From the IMG/VR virus record IMGVR_UViG_3300042542_000467, positions 1 through 40,723 of that record: 40,723 nucleotides of DNA; one strand, given 5' to 3'. Position numbers and translations under genes: made by a program. The DNA comes from a virus. This document shows positions 345-38,451 of this stretch, piece by piece; the stretch's first letter is position 1; every line of letters starts with the position of its first letter. Below the pieces are notes generated by a model. It was not told where the DNA came from, searched no databases, and was given only the letters and a program-made list of their open reading frames with translations.

Positions 345-350
345 ATTATA
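345..350 (-). promoter_or_regulatory. Candidate late promoter (-10 hexamer) upstream of terS
   Basis: On the minus strand the hexamer is exactly TATAAT and overlaps the methyltransferase stop codon. The predicted transcription start near 338 would leave only about 8 bases before the terS ATG at 330. The -35 region is poor: the best candidate is CTGAAT, 18 bases upstream. It is placed correctly to start the late packaging and head operon, but this is a motif match only. Confidence 0.35.
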
Positions 351-1611
351 GTAAAAATTGTTCCGCAAATTCAGGTTGATTGTTTTGGGTATGTTCAATA
401 CGCGCTTTGGCTATCTCGCAATACTCCGCAGACTGCTCAATGCCAATAAACTCAAAACCTTCTAATACAGCACCCTTGCCAGTTGAGCCACTACCCATAA
501 ACAAATCTAAAACTATTCCTTTTGGCGGTGTAACTAATTTACATAGATAACGCATGAGGTCTGTTGGTTTTACTGTTGGGTGATGGTTTTTGTCAGGGTA
601 CTTGCTGTTACTTAAACCTTGATAAGTTCCACCTTTATCGCCAAAAACCTGTTGTTCCTCAAACCCATTGAGCCCCTCGTTCCTGTCACGCTTGCTTGCC
701 TTTGCGCAGTAAAAGAATCGGGCGGCGCTACCACTGTCACCGTAGCCACCAAAAACTTCACCCTTGCCAAAAGTTCCTTTTTCAGTGTCGTGAATACCCA
801 TGCCTGAAGCATTTTTGTACAAATGAGGCTTGCTACCGCTTGCATCAGGAAACAACGCCAGTACCTCATCACTGCCATCATGAATAAAGTTGGCGGGGAA
901 GCGGCCTTGAACTTCTCCATCAGGTATGCGGCCATAATTAGGCCCTGACATTTCGCGGTTTTCGCTAACAACTTCACCCGTTGATGCGGTTTTTTGCATC
1001 ATTTCACTACCAACCCGCGACCCGTCAATGTTCAACCCGCCTACGCCCCAAGTCAGCACATTATTAGCAACGGTGCCTTCCAACGGCTTGCGAGCAAGAA
1101 CCATTGGTTCATGAGCAGGTTTTAGGGCAGTTCCCCAACCTTCCCATTGCTTTGCTTCGTTTGATAATTCTAAAACTTCGCGTTCAACGACATTAGTTTC
1201 TCTGCCAGCATGCATTGAACCGCCTTGCATACCAATGTCAATTTTTTCAGTTCCAATTACTTCGCCTTGAAATCCTGTTGTCTTATCAATTGCTTTTGCA
1301 ATGTTAAGCGATTTTGGAAACCCTGAACCATACACCCACATAATCTGATCGCGGATTTCAAACCCTGCATCTTCAATAGCAACAGCCATGCGGTGATAAG
1401 TGCGAGAACCTGAGAAAGCAATAAGGTGTCCGCCTGGTTTAAGAACGCGTAATGCTTGTTGCCACACTTCAACATTAAAAGCAATACCAGTGCTATCCCA
1501 TGATTTACCCATAAAACCTAATTCATAAGGAGGATCTGTAACTATTGCATCAATACTATTTTCTGCCATTTCTTTCATGGCTTCTATGCAATCTGCGTTA
1601 ATGATCTTCAT
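346..1611 (-). CDS. Beta-class site-specific DNA methyltransferase (probably N6-adenine)
   Basis: This 421-residue protein should transfer a methyl group from S-adenosylmethionine to DNA. Motif IV is DPPY (residues 26-29), near the N-terminus. Near the C-terminus come HHPTVKP and then motif I in the form DLFMGSGSTGKGA. The order IV ... I is that of beta-class enzymes. DPPY favours N6-adenine, although N4-cytosine is possible. A long variable middle is the probable target-recognition region. The ATG at 1611 has a strong SD (AAGGAGG) a few bases upstream. No restriction endonuclease is adjacent, so it is an orphan methyltransferase, likely protecting phage DNA from host restriction or marking it for packaging or regulation. 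A rho-independent terminator lies directly upstream, so it may need read-through or its own promoter. Confidence 0.92.
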   Translation of the reverse strand: MKIINADCIEAMKEMAENSIDAIVTDPPYELGFMGKSWDSTGIAFNVEVWQQALRVLKPGGHLIAFSGSRTYHRMAVAIEDAGFEIRDQIMWVYGSGFPKSLNIAKAIDKTTGFQGEVIGTEKIDIGMQGGSMHAGRETNVVEREVLELSNEAKQWEGWGTALKPAHEPMVLARKPLEGTVANNVLTWGVGGLNIDGSRVGSEMMQKTASTGEVVSENREMSGPNYGRIPDGEVQGRFPANFIHDGSDEVLALFPDASGSKPHLYKNASGMGIHDTEKGTFGKGEVFGGYGDSGSAARFFYCAKASKRDRNEGLNGFEEQQVFGDKGGTYQGLSNSKYPDKNHHPTVKPTDLMRYLCKLVTPPKGIVLDLFMGSGSTGKGAVLEGFEFIGIEQSAEYCEIAKARIEHTQNNQPEFAEQFLL

Positions 1612-1626
1612 TTTGCCTCCTTATTG

Positions 1627-1655
1627 AACAAAACCCACACTCATAAGAATGTGGG
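1627..1655 (-). terminator. Rho-independent terminator of the mini-gene operon
   Basis: On the minus strand a CCCACA...TGTGGG stem (1634-1655, extendable past one mismatch) is followed by TTTTGTT. It lies after the last mini-gene (stop at 1702) and just before the methyltransferase SD, so it separates these two transcription units, probably incompletely. Confidence 0.6.
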
Positions 1656-1671
1656 CTGTGTCCAGCACTCA

Positions 1672-1688
1672 ATCCCCACGGTGGGGAT
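1672..1688. other. 17-bp palindrome upstream of the terminator
   Basis: ATCCCCACGGTGGGGAT is a perfect inverted repeat around a single central base. The loop would be tight for RNA, so it may be a protein-binding site or an additional hairpin that reinforces the neighbouring terminator. It lies between the 29-residue membrane gene and the terminator. Confidence 0.45.
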
Positions 1689-1701
1689 CAGTACGCGTAA
1701 C

Positions 1702-1791
1702 TTATCTAATTCCTAGTGACATTGCAACTACTGCTATAAACAAACTTAGGACAATAAAAAGCATTACTCCATCAAACGGTGTGTTGTTCAT
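1702..1791 (-). CDS. 29-residue single-span membrane protein
   Basis: The product is MNNTPFDGVMLFIVLSLF followed by IAVVAMSLGIR. A hydrophobic stretch from about residue 9 to 26 makes one membrane span. Its ATG overlaps the stop codon of the gene at 1788-1973 as ATGA, which is the translational-coupling signature seen throughout this operon and the main argument that it is real. It is the last gene before the terminator. Function is unknown; small phage membrane proteins of this kind can be lysis regulators, superinfection-exclusion factors or inhibitors of host membrane proteins, but nothing here decides between them. Confidence 0.55.
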   Translation of the reverse strand: MNNTPFDGVMLFIVLSLFIAVVAMSLGIR

Positions 1792-1973
1792 GGCTTACCT
1801 GTTCTTACAAGATTGATACGAGCATCAAGCAATTCATCTAACTGCTCTGTCAGCATCTCTTTTTTGCGCCAATCCATGCGGTTGCCGTTGTCATCAGTTT
1901 TGAGCATGTTGTAAACATGACTCAGACATTCATCTATCTGAGCCACGGTTACTTCTTCTTCAATAACGATCAC
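1788..1973 (-). CDS. Small acidic helical protein, unknown function
   Basis: The product has 61 residues, is predicted to be mostly helical and has an acidic N-terminus (VIEEEV). There are no cysteines and no membrane segment. I recognise no family. It starts with GTG at 1973, 9 bases after the stop of the upstream HTH gene, and its stop overlaps the ATG of the small membrane gene (ATGA), so it sits firmly within the operon. Spacing and length suggest a small host-takeover or regulatory protein, but this is inference only. Confidence 0.6.
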   Translation of the reverse strand: MIVIEEEVTVAQIDECLSHVYNMLKTDDNGNRMDWRKKEMLTEQLDELLDARINLVRTGKP

Positions 1974-1982
1974 ATGAAGATG

Positions 1983-2168
1983 TTAGCCTTGATTACGCTC
2001 CGTGCGCTTTGAAAAATAGTTTTCAACATCTGCTCTTGTGTAGTACACATTACGGCCTGACTTCTGCACCCATGTAAGTGTCTTACGGTGTTGGATCTGT
2101 CGTAAGTTATTTAATGTAATGTTCAAGCGCTCGCATACTTCTGCCGCGCTCATTAGATCATCTACCAC
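1983..2168 (-). CDS. MerR/excisionase-type helix-turn-helix protein
   Basis: This 61-residue protein matches the HTH_17 (excisionase-like) pattern: SAAEVCERLNITLNNLRQI for the recognition helices, followed by a wing (SGRNVYYTRADVENYF). It should bind DNA as a small regulator or architectural factor. The start is GTG at 2168, supported by AAGGAGG a few bases upstream; it overlaps the end of the ssb gene. An ATG five codons in is an alternative. No integrase is present, so a role as a recombination directionality factor is unlikely. Early transcription control is more plausible. Confidence 0.75.
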   Translation of the reverse strand: MVDDLMSAAEVCERLNITLNNLRQIQHRKTLTWVQKSGRNVYYTRADVENYFSKRTERNQG

Positions 2169-2530
2169 GGTGTTGCCTCCTTAGTTGTAAATTGACCTGA
2201 CTTTGGCTTTCCCAATTTAGGAACTAAACCTACTTCTTTGGCTGTAATCTCCATAGAAGTTTTTTCATTTCCTTCTTTGTCGGTGTATGTGCTTTGTGCC
2301 AATTCACCAGTTACTAGAACTGTGTCACCTTTTCTAAAAGTGTCTGCGATTGCTTCAGCCTTTGTATTAAATGCAACAACCTTGAACCACATTGTTTCGC
2401 CATCTTGCCACTCACCATTAACTTGCTTGCGCGGTGTGTAAGCCAATGAAAAATTACAGTATGCGGTGTTGTTCTTAGAAAACTTTAGGTCAGGGTCACT
2501 GCCTAAATTACCTTTAACACTTATGTTCAT
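2162..2530 (-). CDS. ssb: Single-stranded DNA-binding protein
   Basis: A 122-residue OB-fold SSB. Family signatures are the opening NISVKGNLGSDPDLKF, the ACNFSLAYTPR-like strand (here AYCNFSLAYTPRK), MWFKVVAFNTKAEAIA, and KGDTVLVTGELAQSTYTDKEG. It coats single-stranded DNA during replication and recombination. The usual acidic C-terminal tip that recruits partner proteins (DDDIPF type) is absent: the protein ends KEATPW, so its interactions probably differ from those of the host SSB. It is translationally coupled to the HNH gene upstream (start at 2530 shares a base with that stop) and to the HTH gene downstream. Confidence 0.93.
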   Translation of the reverse strand: MNISVKGNLGSDPDLKFSKNNTAYCNFSLAYTPRKQVNGEWQDGETMWFKVVAFNTKAEAIADTFRKGDTVLVTGELAQSTYTDKEGNEKTSMEITAKEVGLVPKLGKPKSGQFTTKEATPW

Positions 2531-2883
2531 TAGTCACCTTCCATCATCACGGCTTCAGTGCCGTCATCTTGTAGTAATACAATTGAACCATCAGGCTTCA
2601 CAAAAGGAAATTCATGTGGCTCTTTGTAAGAAGGCACAATCCAACCCTTTTGTTCTGCGCTTGCAGGCTTGAGGTGAATACTATCGGTTTTTAGATTATG
2701 GCAACCGTGATGGATCAAGATGAGATTGGAAACGGTGTCTTTGCCGCCCCTGGATTTTAGTTTGCGGTGATGCAGGGCCATGTTCTCAACTAAGCCAGGG
2801 CCACCGCAGACTTCGCAATAGCCATTAGCCCTGTTAATTACGGTAGCAACAACCTTCTTATCAATCGCCATCTTCTTCTTCAT
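2530..2883 (-). CDS. HNH endonuclease
   Basis: A 117-residue HNH-fold nuclease. A zinc-binding CEVC (residues 23-26) is followed by the catalytic LHHRKLKSRGGKD (histidines 38-39), then N53 and the HHGCHN segment (58-63), completing the HNH motif and zinc site. It probably nicks or cuts double-stranded DNA. It lies in the early operon directly before ssb, not beside terL, so a packaging role is less likely than host-DNA degradation, replication or homing. The C-terminal third is a short beta-rich tail. Two candidate starts (2883 and 2871) differ by four lysine-rich codons; I kept the longer one. Confidence 0.87.
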   Translation of the reverse strand: MKKKMAIDKKVVATVINRANGYCEVCGGPGLVENMALHHRKLKSRGGKDTVSNLILIHHGCHNLKTDSIHLKPASAEQKGWIVPSYKEPHEFPFVKPDGSIVLLQDDGTEAVMMEGD

Positions 2884-2953
2884 CTTCCCAATCAGTAGGA
2901 TCTACCGTAGGAAGATCAACGCGTAAAGGTAGGCCAAAAGGTGATGTGGTCAT
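2861..2953 (-). CDS. 30-residue acidic mini-protein
   Basis: The product starts MTTSPFGLPLRVDLP and ends in a strongly acidic tail (DWEDEEEDGD). Its ATG overlaps the stop of the transglycosylase gene by one base (TAATG), and its 3' end overlaps the start of the HNH gene by 23 bases. Both contacts fit the coupled-gene pattern of this operon. An acidic tail suggests a DNA-mimic or protein-inhibitor type function, but nothing is demonstrable. It might be a chance ORF bridging two real genes. Confidence 0.45.
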   Translation of the reverse strand: MTTSPFGLPLRVDLPTVDPTDWEDEEEDGD

Positions 2954-3378
2954 TAGTACCAACCTCCATGCATGTCGGGGCCTGCTTGTAATTTCCAAAA
3001 CTCCCAGGCTTTGCAGGGTGTTTGGTAACGCTTGTACACATAGCGCAAACCTGCCTTGATTTGTGTGTAAGCATCTTTGGGCATGTAAGGATACTTGTAA
3101 TTTTTCCATGTGGACGGCAAAAATTGAAACAGCCCAAACGCCCCTGATGAGCGGTTCAGCGCATTTACGCGCCAGCCGCTTTCCTTGTAAAGCAATTGTT
3201 CCAGGCAGGCAAATTGCTTTTTGTGATCAGGATAATTTTTCTTCACCATTTCAAGCGCAATAACTTTTGGCGGCATTTGATGCAACTGTAATTTTGGTGC
3301 TTGAGCCGCCGCAGGTGAAGCAAACACAATTCCTACCGCTAATGCGGCGCTTAAAAGGATTTGTGTTAGACGCTTCAG
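2953..3378 (-). CDS. Secreted lytic transglycosylase (SLT/lysozyme-like), probable CTG start
   Basis: The catalytic domain shows LLYKESGWRVNALNRSSGAF followed by GLFQFLPSTW, the transglycosylase SLT signature with the catalytic Glu in KESGW. It cleaves the glycan backbone of peptidoglycan. A GTG at 3327 gives only MFASPAAAQA at the N-terminus, cutting a signal peptide in half. Extending to CTG at 3378 gives MKRLTQILLSAALAVGIVF followed by ASPAAAQA, a textbook Sec signal (basic n-region, hydrophobic core, AxA site). An AAAGG sits 7 bases before that CTG. The mature enzyme is about 115 residues. Its place in the early operon, far from the lysis cassette, is unusual and suggests wall remodelling or sporadic acquisition rather than terminal lysis. 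Confidence 0.8.
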   Translation of the reverse strand: MKRLTQILLSAALAVGIVFASPAAAQAPKLQLHQMPPKVIALEMVKKNYPDHKKQFACLEQLLYKESGWRVNALNRSSGAFGLFQFLPSTWKNYKYPYMPKDAYTQIKAGLRYVYKRYQTPCKAWEFWKLQAGPDMHGGWY

Positions 3379-3381
3379 GCT

Positions 3382-3471
3382 TTAGCCTTTCGCCAACTTT
3401 CTACACACTTCGCAAGCGGCGTTACCATAAATCCAACTACCGCAAATACAACGATTAACTAAACTGTCCAT
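3382..3471 (-). CDS. 29-residue zinc-knuckle mini-protein
   Basis: The product is MDSLVNRCICGSWIYGNA followed by ACEVCRKLAKG, with paired cysteines C8/C10 and C20/C23 that can hold one zinc ion. The ATG at 3471 has an AAAGGGG SD about 9 bases upstream, and the stop lies 3 bases from the proposed CTG start of the transglycosylase. It is one of several tiny cysteine-pair proteins in this operon. Function is unknown; binding to a host protein or nucleic acid is plausible for a zinc knuckle. Confidence 0.55.
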   Translation of the reverse strand: MDSLVNRCICGSWIYGNAACEVCRKLAKG

Positions 3472-3495
3472 TGCTTTACCCCTTTCAGGTTATTT

Positions 3496-3579
3496 TTAGG
3501 ACTGCTCTATTTTATAGCAAATCTCACTGATTACAACGCCTAAAAGCGTCACAATAATTACGCTTGCAATAAAGATCAT
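3496..3579 (-). CDS. 27-residue membrane mini-protein
   Basis: The sequence opens MIFIASVIIVTLLGVVISEI, almost entirely one membrane span, and closes CYKIEQS. The ATG overlaps the stop of the preceding gene (3576-3782) as ATGA, matching the coupling used by its neighbours. Its small size leaves some risk of a chance ORF, but the start context, hydrophobicity and spacing all agree. Function is unknown. Confidence 0.5.
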   Translation of the reverse strand: MIFIASVIIVTLLGVVISEICYKIEQS

Positions 3580-3782
3580 TCTTCTTCCTCCTGTGGCGTT
3601 AAGTTAATAATTGCTTGAATTACATTAGCCCTGCTTAATCTGATGCCTTCCACAAAACCCATGTAGCGCTCACGCGTTTCAGGTTCGCTTAACATCTTTG
3701 CTACATACGGGCCTTCAATCCAGGTTGTTAGCGCATCTTGTATTGGCTCTAAATGGTTTTTAATTATTTCTTCAGGTGTCAT
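3576..3782 (-). CDS. Small helical acidic-tailed protein, unknown function
   Basis: From the ATG at 3782 the product has 68 residues. It begins MTPEEIIKNHLEPI and ends in TPQEEEE. It looks helical throughout, with no cysteines and no membrane segment. An upstream ATG at 3806 would add eight residues, but the 3782 start overlaps the stop of the preceding gene as ATGA, the pattern used repeatedly here. No family was recognised. Confidence 0.6.
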   Translation of the reverse strand: MTPEEIIKNHLEPIQDALTTWIEGPYVAKMLSEPETRERYMGFVEGIRLSRANVIQAIINLTPQEEEE

Positions 3783-3934
3783 GGGTATCTCAAATCTTTG
3801 CACCACTCTGACATGTTCTCAATTGCTACCTTGCATTGATCAGGGGTAGTTATGTCGTAAAGCCAGTAAACAATTACGGCTACAACAATTCCCAAAACAA
3901 TCTTGCCTCTGCGTGTCAATCTAGCGTTTTCCAT
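3779..3934 (-). CDS. 51-residue membrane-anchored protein
   Basis: The ATG at 3934 is preceded by AGGAGG. The product has a basic N-terminus (MENARLTRRGK), a single membrane span (about residues 12-27, IVLGIVVAVIVYWLYD), then an outer segment with two cysteines (DQCKVAIENMSEWCKDLRYP) that could form a disulphide or bind a metal. The positive-inside rule predicts the C-terminus is outside. Extending to an ATG at 4000 would make it read over the neighbouring gene without an SD. Function is unknown; an envelope-directed role such as exclusion is possible. Confidence 0.6.
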   Translation of the reverse strand: MENARLTRRGKIVLGIVVAVIVYWLYDITTPDQCKVAIENMSEWCKDLRYP

Positions 3935-4085
3935 TGCTTGCCTTCCTCCTAAAGTATTCGTGACCTGCACACCATTCGCACTCACACAACATGCTTCCAT
4001 CTTCTTGATAATGAACTAATACAAAATTAGCGGGTGATCCAAAAGTTCCGCACCATACGCAACTAGGATCTTTGCTTATAGACAT
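3921..4085 (-). CDS. 54-residue zinc-finger-like protein
   Basis: It begins MSISKDPSCVWCGTFGSP and later contains MLCECEWCAGHEYF. The pairs CVWC and CECEWC give four or five cysteines arranged for one zinc site, with a nearby histidine. It ends in a basic tail (FRRKASNGKR). It overlaps the next gene start by 14 bases and its ATG lies inside the end of the preceding gene. The SD is weak, so expression may rely on coupling. Probably a nucleic-acid or protein-binding zinc finger; function unknown. Confidence 0.55.
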   Translation of the reverse strand: MSISKDPSCVWCGTFGSPANFVLVHYQEDGSMLCECEWCAGHEYFRRKASNGKR

Positions 4086-4239
4086 TGTGGATCTGTGGGT
4101 TCATGTCAGCCAACTTATCTTGAATTGCAAACCAAACTTGTTCGCGTTGCATTGCATTATTCATTGACTGACTTTTGTTAGGTGGAATTACAAAATCATT
4201 GTAATCAACCGTTATTTCTATTTTGAACTTCACACACAT
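4063..4239 (-). CDS. 58-residue protein, unknown function
   Basis: The product reads MCVKFKIEITVDYNDF, then a helical part with AMQREQVWFAIQDKLADM. The ATG at 4239 is only 2 bases from a GAAAGGAC SD; a GTG two codons later would have ideal spacing and may be the true start. The gene overlaps the stop of the preceding gene (4230) and runs 23 bases into the following zinc-finger gene. No family recognised. Confidence 0.5.
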   Translation of the reverse strand: MCVKFKIEITVDYNDFVIPPNKSQSMNNAMQREQVWFAIQDKLADMNPQIHNVYKQRS

Positions 4240-4424
4240 GTCCTTTCGCGCTTGTTAATTTCATTCCACACGCGTATGCGTGTTGCCTCAATAGTTTTTT
4301 CAGGATTGCCATACAACTTTTTATGATAATCGTAAGCAGGATTACCTGGGCCATCTTCTAGCGTTGCTTCATACTGCGCAAGCGCTTGATTGATAATTTG
4401 TAAATCTTTACTTGTTAGTGCCAT
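4230..4424 (-). CDS. Small helical protein, unknown function
   Basis: The product has 64 residues, starting MALTSKDLQIINQALAQYEA and ending EINKRERTCV. It is mostly helical, with a Pro-Gly-Asn loop (DGPGNPAYDY). The ATG at 4424 overlaps the preceding stop as TAATG, which selects this start over an upstream one at 4490. No domain was recognised. It is part of the coupled mini-gene chain. Confidence 0.6.
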   Translation of the reverse strand: MALTSKDLQIINQALAQYEATLEDGPGNPAYDYHKKLYGNPEKTIEATRIRVWNEINKRERTCV

Positions 4425-4612
4425 TACTTTGCCTCTCCTAATCTTGGTAGTGTCAAATAACCATCTGTTTTTGGGTGACAGCGCGCGCAAAGAATTCCTT
4501 GCTCACCTTGTTTGGCCCATGAGCGCAACGCATGCCCCTTGCAAGCGTTACAAACAATTAACAACTTTGCCCACTCAGCGGGCATTGGCTTCCAACCAAC
4601 AGGTGCAGTCAT
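4424..4612 (-). CDS. 62-residue zinc-ribbon protein
   Basis: Two CxxC pairs are present: CNAC (residues 21-24) and CARC (42-45), 17 residues apart, as in a small zinc ribbon. Between them lies a basic helix-like stretch (KGHALRSWAKQGEQG). Both ends are coupled: the ATG at 4612 overlaps the stop of the upstream gene, and the stop overlaps the next ATG. Small zinc ribbons in phage early regions often bind host RNA polymerase or nucleic acid; that is only a family-level suggestion. Confidence 0.65.
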   Translation of the reverse strand: MTAPVGWKPMPAEWAKLLIVCNACKGHALRSWAKQGEQGILCARCHPKTDGYLTLPRLGEAK

Positions 4613-4806
4613 TACATTGCCCCCTTCATAAGTGCTACAACTTCATCAACCGTAATTTGTCCGCTCTTAATTTGTGTGTACAAAGTGCGGCCAAAATAAC
4701 GGTCATTTACATAACGGAACATTGTGTGAAAAGTGTTAAATGTAAAACCTGTGCCGTTGTGAACATCTGTCATAAACTGATCAAGATTAACTTTTGTTGT
4801 AGTCAT
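4612..4806 (-). CDS. 64-residue protein, unknown function
   Basis: From the ATG at 4806 the product begins MTTTKVNLDQFMTDVHNGTG and ends DEVVALMKGAM. The start lies 2 bases after the preceding stop, with GGAGG about 10 bases upstream inside the end of that gene; a start at 4830 lacks support. The content is mixed helix and strand with many aromatic residues (FTFNTFHTMFRYVNDRYF). No family recognised. Confidence 0.6.
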   Translation of the reverse strand: MTTTKVNLDQFMTDVHNGTGFTFNTFHTMFRYVNDRYFGRTLYTQIKSGQITVDEVVALMKGAM

Positions 4807-4808
4807 AA

Positions 4809-5039
4809 TTAATTGCCTCCAAGAGTCCATGTGTAATTGTGTGCAATTACTTTGTGTGCTTCAACTTCACTAATTACATAAGACTTAATTGCGCCACCAG
4901 TTCTTGACTCCCAACCGCATGAACAAGTTGCGTCCCAACCGCCGCTAATAAAACCTCTAGTGTTGCGAAACTTATTTCCGTTTGTATCAACGGCGAACCA
5001 CTTAATTGTTACTTTTGCTTCTGTTGCTACTAACTTCAT
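4809..5039 (-). CDS. 76-residue protein with a CxC pair, first gene of the mini-gene operon
   Basis: The product starts MKLVATEAKVTIKWFAVDTN and contains a central CSCGWESRTGG, resembling a dsRNA-binding-like or zinc-associated beta fold, though no family can be named. The ATG at 5039 has a strong AAGGAGG SD. It is the first gene downstream of the predicted promoter at 5079-5107 and heads the chain of about 13 small genes that ends at 1702. Homologous short proteins with central SCGW segments occur in other actinophages as far as I recall; no function is known to me. Confidence 0.65.
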   Translation of the reverse strand: MKLVATEAKVTIKWFAVDTNGNKFRNTRGFISGGWDATCSCGWESRTGGAIKSYVISEVEAHKVIAHNYTWTLGGN

Positions 5040-5052
5040 TTTTGCCTCCTTT

Positions 5053-5067
5053 GGGAGCGGATCTCCC
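5053..5067 (-). other. Small hairpin in the operon leader
   Basis: GGGAGATCCGCTCCC forms a 5-bp stem (GGGAG/CTCCC) in the untranslated leader, immediately upstream of the AAGGAGG SD of the first mini-gene. It could influence translation or mRNA stability. It is short, so chance is possible. Confidence 0.3.
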
Positions 5068-5078
5068 TTACAAGGAAT

Positions 5079-5107
5079 AAATTACGGCAGATTTAGGCTT
5101 GTGTCAA
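5079..5107 (-). promoter_or_regulatory. Sigma70-type promoter for the mini-gene operon
   Basis: On the minus strand the -35 is a perfect TTGACA (5102-5107), followed by 17 bases and TAATTT (5079-5084, three of six consensus bases). The predicted transcription start is near 5072, about 33 bases before the first ATG. It occupies the only sizeable gap between the RusA gene and the mini-gene chain. Confidence 0.6.
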
Positions 5108-5136
5108 AAACATTTGCATTATTTGTGCTATTTATT

Positions 5137-5154
5137 GTGTGATGTGGCTCACAC
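5137..5154. promoter_or_regulatory. CRP/GlxR-type operator
   Basis: The sequence GTGTGA-TGTGGC-TCACAC contains a perfect TGTGA-N6-TCACA dyad, the consensus for cAMP-receptor-type regulators, including actinobacterial CRP and GlxR. Its centre (5145.5) lies about 73 bases upstream of the predicted start at 5072, in the range used by class I CRP activation sites. It is intergenic, directly after the RusA stop codon. Confidence 0.6.
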
Positions 5155-5157
5155 ACC

Positions 5158-5538
5158 CTAAACGGGCATTTTGGCCCACATTTGAACCCAAAGGCCAGGC
5201 GTGATCCCGTACTGCTTAGCCGCGGTCAGGCGTACAACCTGCCCATCATCACGGTAGGCAATGGCTGTGAGGCCGTCTAGGACTGCTCTGACCAGTTTAT
5301 CCAGGTCAGGGGCTACTGACGGCTCAGGGCGGTTTACGGTCTTTGGGCGGGCCATTGTAAAAATCATGTCTATTTCCACTGGCTCAATGTGGGGCTTTGC
5401 CCCTGCCTCCCTAGCCCGCAAAGCAATGGCAGAACGCCATGCGGCCAGTTCTGAACCTTTGGCATGAATGACATGCCCGTTGATGACTTTCATAGATCCT
5501 TGCGGAACTGGTTGGCCATCTACCTGAAAAGTAATCAC
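5158..5538 (-). CDS. rusA: RusA-family Holliday junction resolvase
   Basis: A 126-residue RusA-like endonuclease that resolves four-way DNA junctions during recombination-dependent replication and before packaging. The family signature PDLDKLVRAVLDGLT (residues 77-91) and AYRDDGQVV (94-102) supplies the acidic metal-binding residues D78, D80, D88 and D97/D98. The N-terminal GQPVPQGSMKV is also typical. Length matches the family. It is the last gene of the block upstream of the CRP-type site and promoter. It overlaps the preceding small gene (stop 5535) by four bases. Confidence 0.88.
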   Translation of the reverse strand: MITFQVDGQPVPQGSMKVINGHVIHAKGSELAAWRSAIALRAREAGAKPHIEPVEIDMIFTMARPKTVNRPEPSVAPDLDKLVRAVLDGLTAIAYRDDGQVVRLTAAKQYGITPGLWVQMWAKMPV

Positions 5539-35085: not shown

Positions 35086-35746
35086 TGTTGGGGCTAATCG
35101 TGGTGATGCAACACTTGCAGGGTTAGAACAGGGATACCGCGTAATAGCCTTAGAAGCCGCCCCACGCGTGTTTTCAGAGTTGGTTGGTAACTTCATCTAC
35201 AACCCTGATGTTGTACCTCTTAGAATGGCAGTTAGTGACAAAGATGGCGAGCGCTTAAAGTTTTATGAGGCAGATGAAGATGGCCTTAGTTCGCTTAACC
35301 AAGAGTGGCTAACCAAAGACGGCATGCCATACAAAGGCAAGCCTCACCGTGAGGTAGAAGTAAACACAATCACCATTGACACTCTTGCAGATACATACGG
35401 CAACCCTGACTTAATCAAGATTGATGTTGAAGGTGCAGAGTGGCAAGTAATGAAAGGCATGACACGGCACTACGGTGGATTGCTTTGCTTTGAGTGGACA
35501 TTTGAAACCATGCACCAACATGAGGATCAGTTAGATTATTTATTCACCCTGGGTTACAGAGAGATGGCCGCGCAATACATTGTGAACCATCTGCAAGAGC
35601 CTGAAGTTTGGGGCAACATGCAATCTAATAACACCAATCAACTAAACGCCTGGCATCAACTGACATCTGATGAGTGGATAGACGGCGGTTGGAAACTAGC
35701 CAACCTACGCCCTACCGCAGATGTAGGTATGTTGTGGGTTCGTTAG
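35072..35746 (+). CDS. FkbM-family methyltransferase
   Basis: 224 residues. The SAM-binding motif is FDVGANRGDATLAG (residues 4-17), then VIALEAAPRVFSELVGNF and VPLRMAVSDKDGERLKFY. The FkbM hallmark IKIDVEGAEWQVMKGM follows. These enzymes O-methylate sugars or small molecules. In this cassette it probably caps a glycan on the virion or host surface. SD AAAGGA precedes the ATG. Its stop shares TTAG with the stop of the collagen-like gene on the other strand. Confidence 0.85.
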   Translation: MLLFDVGANRGDATLAGLEQGYRVIALEAAPRVFSELVGNFIYNPDVVPLRMAVSDKDGERLKFYEADEDGLSSLNQEWLTKDGMPYKGKPHREVEVNTITIDTLADTYGNPDLIKIDVEGAEWQVMKGMTRHYGGLLCFEWTFETMHQHEDQLDYLFTLGYREMAAQYIVNHLQEPEVWGNMQSNNTNQLNAWHQLTSDEWIDGGWKLANLRPTADVGMLWVR

Positions 35747-38451
35747 GAAATGTCTCCAACAATTGTAAAGTTGTTAGAACTTGTACAAAGGATTGATGCG
35801 GAACTGTACTGAGCGCGTAACACTGGGCTTGCAGATCCATTTGATGTAAATGTAACGCCGCTTGCCACGATAGAAACCGCACCTGCACCAATACGCTGTA
35901 CATAAATAACCTGTCCAGTGCTAAATACTCCTGCGGGAACAGTGATGTTTGCAGTACCGCTCTGTGTAACCCATTTGTTTACATCTCCTGCAACCAATGT
36001 ATAAGCAATTGATTGCGCGTTAAATGTAACGGTTGGAAGCGTTCCAGTTGTTCCTTGTGTACCCAAAGTTCCTTGTAAACCTTGAGTTCCAGTTAATCCC
36101 TGAAGTCCAGTTGTGCCTTGAACTCCCTGAGTACCCTGAGTTCCCTGGCTACCCGTAGTTCCTTGAGTTCCCGTAGCACCCTGAATACCATTTGTACCTT
36201 GAGTTCCTTGAATACCCTCTGCACCCGTAGTTCCCTGTGATCCAGTTAAACCTTGAGTACCAGTGATGCCTTGAATTCCCTCAGTACCTTGTGATCCAGT
36301 TGTTCCTTGAATTCCCTCAAGCCCCTGCGTACCTTGAGTTCCAGTTGTTCCCTGGCTACCAGTTAAACCTTGTGTTCCAGTGAAACCTTGTGTTCCTTCT
36401 AGTCCTTGAATTCCGTCAGTACCCTGGCTACCTGTTGTTCCTTGAACACCATTAACTCCATCAGTACCTTGCGCACCAGTCGTTCCTTGCGCGCCATTTA
36501 ATCCATCAGTTCCCTGACTTCCTACAAGTCCTTGCACACCCTGAGTTCCTTGAACTCCCTGTGTTCCTTGAGTTCCTTGAATACCATCAAGTCCTTGTGT
36601 GCCAGTTTCTCCTTGAATACCAATAAGGCCCTGAATTCCAGTAGTTCCTTGCGCACCTTCTAAGCCTTGAGTTCCTTCATGGCCTTGTACGCCTTGAACA
36701 CCTTGTAAACCAACAGCGCCTTGAGTGCCAGTTAAACCTTGTGATCCTATTTGGCCTTGAATACCCTCAATGCCTTGAGTTCCTTCAACGCCTTGCAAAC
36801 CTTCAACGCCTTGTGCGCCAGTTGTACCCTGCGCGCCAACAAGTCCTTGAGTTCCAGTCGTACCCTGTAAGCCTTCAGTTCCCTGAACACCTTGCAAGCC
36901 CTGAGTTCCCTGCGCTCCTGTTGTACCTTGCGCACCCGTAACTCCTTGAATACCAACGCTCTGCGTAATAAGAGAAAGGTTGTGATTATTAGCAAAGTTT
37001 GTTGTGCCTGTTCCGCCTGATGCAAGAAGTGTTACAGGAAAAGTGAAATAACTGTTAGTAACAGATGTAGGTGTGCCGTTTACTTCCCACTCTTGATAAT
37101 TGTTAGAGTTAGTTCTATCTTGAATAAAGAAAATGTCATTATCTTTAATGTTTGCTAATAGAAAATCAATGTCCACATTGAAATCTGTTAAATGAGAAAT
37201 GTAAATGTTCGTTGCAGAAATTTGTGTAGCGTTATTCCAAATAATTCTGCCAGCGGCAGGTACAGGTGTTTGAGTTGTAGTGTCTGCTTGATACTCAAAA
37301 ATAGATGATGATGTACCACTTGCACCAGTATTACCCTGAACACCCTGAATACCATTTAAGCCCTGAACACCCTGGCTACCAGTAGTTCCTTGTACGCCTT
37401 GAGTTCCCTGCGCTCCAACAGTTCCCTGAATTCCATCAAGTCCTTGAGAACCTGTTGTGCCTTGTAATCCAGTAATACCTTGAGCGCCTGTATGTCCTTG
37501 AATTCCCTCAAGTCCTTGAGCGCCAGTAACTCCTTGAATACCTTGTGTACCTTGAGATCCAGTTAATCCCTGAGTACCAGTTGCCCCCTGTGTACCGTCA
37601 TGCCCTTGAACGCCCTGTGTACCTTGTGCGCCTATTGTTCCTTGCGCTCCAATAGTTCCTTGAGAGCCAGTAATACCTTGAACGCCTTGTGTACCTTGCG
37701 CACCTGTGTTGCCTTGAATTCCAGTAAGGCCCTGAGAACCTGTATCACCAGTTGTTCCTTGAGAACCTGTGTTGCCAGTAGTTCCCTGAACGCCAGTTAA
37801 ACCTTGAGATCCTGTTGTTCCTTGTGTTCCAGGTGTTCCAACATTTCCTAATAAACCTTGCGTTCCTTGAGTTCCAGTAGTGCCTTGAATTCCTGTTGCG
37901 CCCTGTGTACCTGTTGCGCCCTGTGTTCCATTTGTTCCAGTTATACCTTGTGCGCCAATAGAACCTTGAATACCAAGCAAACCTTGTGTACCAGTTGCTC
38001 CTTGTGTGCCTGTAATACCTTGCGCACCGTTAGTTCCTTGTACGCCAACTAAACCCTGTGTACCTGTTGCACCCTGTACACCTTCAGTTCCCTGCGCTCC
38101 TGATGTGCCTTGTGTTCCGTTAATTCCTTGAACACCAAATGATCCTTGAATACCAGTTTGGCCTTGAATACCTGTTGTGCCTTGTGCGCCCTGTACACCT
38201 TGCAAACCATCTGCACCCTGAATACCAGTTAAACCTTGTGTACCTGTTATGCCTTGTGTTCCTTGTGCCTGGTTAAATCCGCCACCTTGTAAACCTTGTG
38301 TGCCTTGAATACCTTGTGCTGATGCCGCACCACTCATGCCTTGAATACCTTGAGCGCCTTGTTGCCCCATAGGGCCAGGTGTTACAACAATGACATTGGG
38401 AGTTCCAACAGGGTTTGGATTGTTCAAAAAGTTATTTGGGTTGTATGTCAT
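35743..38451 (-). CDS. Collagen-like fibre protein
   Basis: 902 residues: a short N-terminal anchor (MTYNPNNFLNNPNPVGTPNV), a collagen-like segment of about 320 residues (roughly 30-375), a globular insert of about 115 residues (SSIFEYQADTTTQTPVPAAG ...), a second collagen-like segment (about 495-805), and a C-terminal beta domain (VTFNAQSIAYTLVAGDVNKW) related to that of the 298-residue fibre. Triplets are mostly T/I/V/L-Q-G and x-T-G; proline is almost absent, and Thr and Gln take the usual positions. It should form a long trimeric stalk. Encoded near terL, so it is probably a capsid or whisker-type fibre rather than a tail-tip fibre. Overlaps the preceding gene by four bases. Confidence 0.87.
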   Translation of the reverse strand: MTYNPNNFLNNPNPVGTPNVIVVTPGPMGQQGAQGIQGMSGAASAQGIQGTQGLQGGGFNQAQGTQGITGTQGLTGIQGADGLQGVQGAQGTTGIQGQTGIQGSFGVQGINGTQGTSGAQGTEGVQGATGTQGLVGVQGTNGAQGITGTQGATGTQGLLGIQGSIGAQGITGTNGTQGATGTQGATGIQGTTGTQGTQGLLGNVGTPGTQGTTGSQGLTGVQGTTGNTGSQGTTGDTGSQGLTGIQGNTGAQGTQGVQGITGSQGTIGAQGTIGAQGTQGVQGHDGTQGATGTQGLTGSQGTQGIQGVTGAQGLEGIQGHTGAQGITGLQGTTGSQGLDGIQGTVGAQGTQGVQGTTGSQGVQGLNGIQGVQGNTGASGTSSSIFEYQADTTTQTPVPAAGRIIWNNATQISATNIYISHLTDFNVDIDFLLANIKDNDIFFIQDRTNSNNYQEWEVNGTPTSVTNSYFTFPVTLLASGGTGTTNFANNHNLSLITQSVGIQGVTGAQGTTGAQGTQGLQGVQGTEGLQGTTGTQGLVGAQGTTGAQGVEGLQGVEGTQGIEGIQGQIGSQGLTGTQGAVGLQGVQGVQGHEGTQGLEGAQGTTGIQGLIGIQGETGTQGLDGIQGTQGTQGVQGTQGVQGLVGSQGTDGLNGAQGTTGAQGTDGVNGVQGTTGSQGTDGIQGLEGTQGFTGTQGLTGSQGTTGTQGTQGLEGIQGTTGSQGTEGIQGITGTQGLTGSQGTTGAEGIQGTQGTNGIQGATGTQGTTGSQGTQGTQGVQGTTGLQGLTGTQGLQGTLGTQGTTGTLPTVTFNAQSIAYTLVAGDVNKWVTQSGTANITVPAGVFSTGQVIYVQRIGAGAVSIVASGVTFTSNGSASPVLRAQYSSASILCTSSNNFTIVGDIS

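Follow-up and report, generated by a model that had tools for sequence, protein, structure and literature searches.

The question raised by this locus is whether a perfect CRP/GlxR-type palindrome, found between a RusA-like resolvase gene and a putative operon of small phage genes, serves as an operator through which a virus engages the global regulator of its host. The window, by which we mean the whole stretch of DNA analysed, is the viral record IMGVR_UViG_3300042542_000467 with its 40,723 bases; its GC content is 41-47% and, according to the list of open reading frames, the minus strand holds nearly all genes.

An exact dyad upstream of a conserved predicted promoter

The locus comprises the following features, the gap classes named here being listed further below:

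5158..5538, minus strand: RusA-like resolvase gene (PF05866, E 1.6e-13), with its stop codon 2 bases from the dyad
5136..5155, no strand assigned: CRP/GlxR-type dyad TGTGTGA-N6-TCACACA, exact, the sole copy in the window, kept in the related loci L018, L020 and L034
5102..5107, minus strand: -35 element TTGACA, read from the sequence and invariant in class A and class C relatives
5079..5084, minus strand: -10 element TAATTT, 17 bp from the -35 element, with a predicted start near 5072
5053..5067, minus strand: 5'-leader hairpin GGGAG-ATCCG-CTCCC, with compensatory changes in relatives
4809..5039, minus strand: first gene of the small operon (open reading frame, 76 aa), with relatives in L002-L010

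The letters and coordinates of the original prediction proved right: the core TGTGA-N6-TCACA (TGTGATGTGGCTCACA) lies at 5138-5153 with both half-sites exact and 6 bp apart, inside the intergenic gap 5040-5157, and the symmetry extends to perfect 7-bp arms (TGTGTGA/TCACACA) over 5136-5155. By a first-order Markov estimate, the exact motif TGTGAN6TCACA, present once in the 40.7-kb window, is expected 0.06 times, and the dyad with 7-bp arms 0.0003 times per window. When two mismatches are tolerated, the 17 sites found in the window against 23.5 expected are not above chance, and hence only the perfect site is informative.

The -10 element TAATTT is weak in comparison with TATAAT, and a generic consensus promoter scan did not list TTGACA-N17-TAATTT; support for the promoter is therefore drawn from its conservation in relatives, most of which carry TAATTT, TAATGT or TAATCT at the same position. 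With the start taken as 6 nt after the -10 element, the centre of the dyad falls at -73.5. Class I CRP sites in E. coli are centred near -61.5, -72, -82 or -92. Thus, the dyad stands, as had been proposed, about 73 bases upstream of a start with a perfect TTGACA and at a class I distance, the start being a predicted one and the yardstick coming from E. coli.

The downstream operon and its leader

The putative operon continues beyond its first gene as follows:

346..4830, minus strand: remainder of the putative operon, small unassigned genes and identified ones (open reading frames and Pfam)
2953-3327, minus strand: transglycosylase-like protein (Pfam)
2530-2883, minus strand: HNH protein (Pfam)
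2162-2530, minus strand: SSB (Pfam)
1983-2168, minus strand: HTH protein (Pfam)
346-1611, minus strand: DNA methylase (Pfam)

The genes between 346 and 5039 are presumed to form one transcript. The 76-aa first gene had no match in Pfam or PHROGs. The original prediction spoke of takeover genes, a designation that goes further than these products, which are mostly unassigned small proteins together with the transglycosylase-like, HNH, SSB, HTH and DNA methylase proteins.

The leader hairpin follows the predicted start and immediately precedes the ribosome-binding site; its 5 pairs are 100% paired over 14 distinct sequences, with 12 cells changed on both sides. Its covariation score of 0.519 exceeds that of shuffles (0.135), and slid partners scored lower. 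This hairpin is perhaps an mRNA-stabilising element; no Rfam family was found in the window.

Gaps behind RusA in related phages

Related loci were collected from viral contigs through the RusA protein (53 loci) and through the first downstream gene (9 loci, L002-L010 among them). Comparison of 49 gaps behind RusA, the window included, yielded 40 distinct versions and revealed a mosaic, in which the perfect TGTGA-N6-TCACA is present in 4 of the 40 versions and the others carry different dyads or none:

Class A gap (window, L018, L020, L034): perfect TGTGA-N6-TCACA
Class B gap: TGTGACCAGTCACA
Class C gap: TGTGACAGACACCACA and variants
Class D gap: GGCG..CGCC
Class E gap: TGACCAGTCA
Remaining gaps: include the LexA-box-like GAACAAATGTTC in L056 and L057

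In L022, L023, L025, L029, L035-L038 and others, the slot holds TGTGACCAGTCACA, TGACCAGTCA or GGCG..CGCC; in L056 and L057, the LexA-like palindrome GAACAAATGTTC takes the place of the CRP-type dyad of the window.

Within class A, all 10 half-site bases are invariant and 4 of the 6 central bases vary, while the next pair outward changes symmetrically, being G-C in the window and A-T in the other members. The distance from the dyad centre to the -10 element is 61.5 bp in all four promoters. An independent scan used ATGCAAATGTTTTTGACA, which does not overlap the dyad, and recovered the class A promoters along with matches that have no promoter; the dyad thus occurs in 4 of 4 promoters of the class A type. 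The first downstream gene varies within class A, from which it follows that dyad and operon content recombine. The expectation that the dyad would be conserved in relatives held in one part and failed in another: spacing and half-sites are exact in three phages with the same promoter type (L018, L020, L034), whereas the dyad and the first gene downstream occur in independent combinations, and in most relatives a different dyad fills the slot.

Where distances were measured in classes B and C, a TGTGA-N6-NCACA reading mostly sits 62.5 bp from the -10 element; L041 gives 56.5 bp if its first candidate -10 element is taken, and the next candidate would bring it to 62.5 bp. Since an N4 palindrome describes class B better, the reading of these dyads as degenerate CRP sites, made from their letters, is suggestive only.

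The probable host and its regulator

Among the products of the window is a WhiB-like protein (PF02467), and the relatives of its RusA among isolated phages belong mostly to phages of Mycobacterium, Arthrobacter and Gordonia; on these grounds an actinobacterial host is likely. Isolated phages of 'Ca. Planktophila' have genomes of 39 kb with about 44.8% GC and carry whiB (PMC10202952), and the window resembles them in size, GC content and whiB. The host is thus probably a streamlined freshwater actinobacterium. A search of known phages at the DNA level with positions 1-25000 of the window gave no match, and no relative of the RusA protein turned up in the reference genomes, so that no named host can be tied to the phage through a prophage.

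CRP/GlxR was detected in 284 of 297 Actinomycetes genomes, with 13 lacking a match, and in all 33 small genomes followed (1.0-1.8 Mb). Those assembled as single contigs measure 1.16-1.46 Mb, and the regions read have 39-48% GC. Sizes of 1.16-1.48 Mb have been reported for streamlined freshwater groups (Nanopelagicales) (PMC7527133), and the small low-GC Actinomycetes genomes, which fit them in size and GC content, are probably Nanopelagicales. In nine CRPs read and aligned from the small genomes, the recognition helix QLVGASRETVNKAL is identical to that of GlxR and the GELSLFDPGPRT pocket is kept; the two CRPs from the genomes of lowest GC have RAN in the C-helix instead of the RTN of GlxR. 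The best PDB match of one small-genome CRP was 3h3u, a solved CRP of mycobacterial type. In the group to which the host presumably belongs, then, a CRP/GlxR homologue of the kind the original prediction called for is present, with an identical recognition helix in the nine proteins aligned. A CRP encoded by the phage itself was not found among the approximately 30 window proteins scanned (Pfam, PHROGs).

Avoidance of the motif in probable host genomes

Motif counts were made in 20 small Actinomycetes genomes (the G027 to G273 set). GTGA-N6-TCAC occurs 113 times there, against 495 times for the N4, 597 for the N7 and 493 for the N9 form, and the reversed controls for N6, N7 and N9 range from 450 to 498. 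The motif is thus avoided 4-5-fold in a spacer-specific manner, N6 being the only one affected among the spacers compared; coding constraint does not explain this avoidance, because N9 shares the codon phase of N6. Three large Actinomycetes show an approximately 2.5-fold enrichment of the N6 form over the reversed control. The simplest reading is that streamlined genomes avoid stray CRP sites; a cause other than CRP, for example a restriction-like one, could also produce the avoidance. The small genomes show no enrichment of the perfect TGTGA-N6-TCACA (6 versus 9 in the control), a result that by itself speaks against CRP; the spacer controls revealed avoidance specific to N6. The class B/E core TGACCAGTCA, counted as a host motif, was not enriched in the probable hosts.

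Most of the surviving GTGA-N6-TCAC sites inspected in host genomes lie within coding sequence. An intergenic survivor upstream of ctaE/COX3 is found in genomes G230, G079 and G046, with conserved half-sites around a variable centre; identical 14-mers are also present in G127 and G177, and a perfect TGTGA-N6-TCACA stands beside ctaG in G177 and G195. Cytochrome-oxidase genes are activated by GlxR in C. glutamicum (PMC7026483). The ctaE sites are 63.5, 72.5 and 73.5 bp from putative -10 elements, spacings that are close to the 61.5 bp of the phage or approximately one helical turn further.

Proposed borrowing of a host activator and competing explanations

Taken at the level of sequence comparison, these observations make it reasonably probable that the CRP/GlxR of the inferred host would bind the dyad and activate the promoter of the small operon from a class I position. 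In the proposed mechanism, a host CRP dimer would occupy the dyad at about -73.5, the class I position, and would aid RNA polymerase to start at TTGACA-N17-TAATTT; transcription would then cover the small-gene operon, the mRNA of which would open with the conserved hairpin. The data suggest that the phage borrows a host activator, and the dyad is probably an operator for host CRP that functions at a phage promoter.

The same protein might instead repress the promoter, or the site might titrate CRP. CRP repression of phage T1 promoters provides a precedent (PMC6737242) and GlxR acts as both activator and repressor (PMC7026483); however, at -73.5 the site does not overlap the core promoter, a position that favours activation, its spacing is near that of the host ctaE sites, which belong to a gene class activated by GlxR, and a single copy makes a poor titrator, so that repression or titration appears unlikely. 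We regard it as fairly unlikely that another regulator, of host or phage origin, uses the dyad as its operator and that the likeness to a CRP site arose by convergence. On this view the slot would hold operators of various factors; TGTGACCAGTCACA, TGACCAGTCA and the LexA-like GAACAAATGTTC occupy it in relatives, and WhiB-like and HTH proteins are among the products of the phage; nevertheless, the class A dyad matches the CRP consensus at every half-site base, the N6 spacing alone is avoided in the probable hosts, and none of the phage proteins scanned is CRP-like.

The start of the dyad 2 bases past the RusA stop codon led us to consider a role in RNA, in which a hairpin would close the RusA message at its 3' end as terminator or stability element. 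The RNA stem of the window has an energy of -9.2 kcal/mol, and classes B, C and D are foldable there too, whereas class E hardly folds and the minimum-energy fold of L034 bypasses its intact half-sites. Such a role is very unlikely; an intrinsic terminator or RNA hairpin was rejected on the grounds that a T-run is absent, that the terminator scan did not contain this hairpin and that the members of class A do not all share the fold. As to a chance dyad without function, the motif is short, present in one copy and missing from most relatives, but 0.06 copies are expected anywhere in the window and far fewer in the gap itself, and the half-sites are kept in four distinct phages despite a changing centre; we consider this explanation extremely improbable.

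A broader proposal, which we hold to be tentative and rather doubtful, is that the RusA gap functions as an operator slot that swaps sites for host regulators before one promoter-plus-hairpin cassette (a CRP site in class A, possibly degenerate ones in classes B and C, and a LexA-like box in L056 and L057), with CRP acting as a cAMP-free activator in hosts devoid of the cyclase. Class III adenylate cyclase (PF00211) was detected in 0 of the 20 small genomes, the same search being positive in C. glutamicum, and for this reason CRP in the probable hosts may act without cAMP. An actinobacterial CRP, that of M. tuberculosis, has been reported to work without cAMP (PMC9645806). The suggested coupling of phage genes to the cAMP or energy state of the host thus found no support in the 20 probable-host genomes as far as class III cyclases are concerned.

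Relation to known systems

A close parallel to the proposed host-CRP activation of the phage promoter is provided by the GlxR promoters ctaD, ctaCF and ctaE-qcrCAB of C. glutamicum (PMC7026483), where the same TGTGA-N6-TCACA stands upstream of a sigma-70-type promoter; the regulator of the probable hosts is orthologous to GlxR, with an identical recognition helix, whereas here the site is carried by a phage and the probable hosts lack class III adenylate cyclase. In phage T1, host CRP likewise acts directly on phage promoters, those of pir, dam and recE (PMC6737242), an action that we infer for the present phage; there CRP represses, in an E. coli host and together with cAMP, whereas activation in an actinobacterial phage is proposed here. 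In phage GIL01 (PMC4551915), a host regulator, LexA, is borrowed via a phage operator, as proposed here for CRP; GIL01 is temperate and repressed by LexA through SOS boxes. Among the window proteins scanned, a lysogeny module was absent except for an excisionase-like HTH protein.

If the proposed activation is true, the phage ties the expression of its genes to the global regulator of its hosts, which are probably streamlined freshwater actinobacteria. The host genomes would then also give a first picture of the CRP motif in this group: sparse sites, avoidance that depends on the spacer, targets among cytochrome-oxidase genes and the absence of class III cyclase.

Elsewhere in the window, a 902-aa protein (35743-38451, minus strand) contains nine collagen triple-helix stretches (PF01391, E 2e-100) and is perhaps a fibre.
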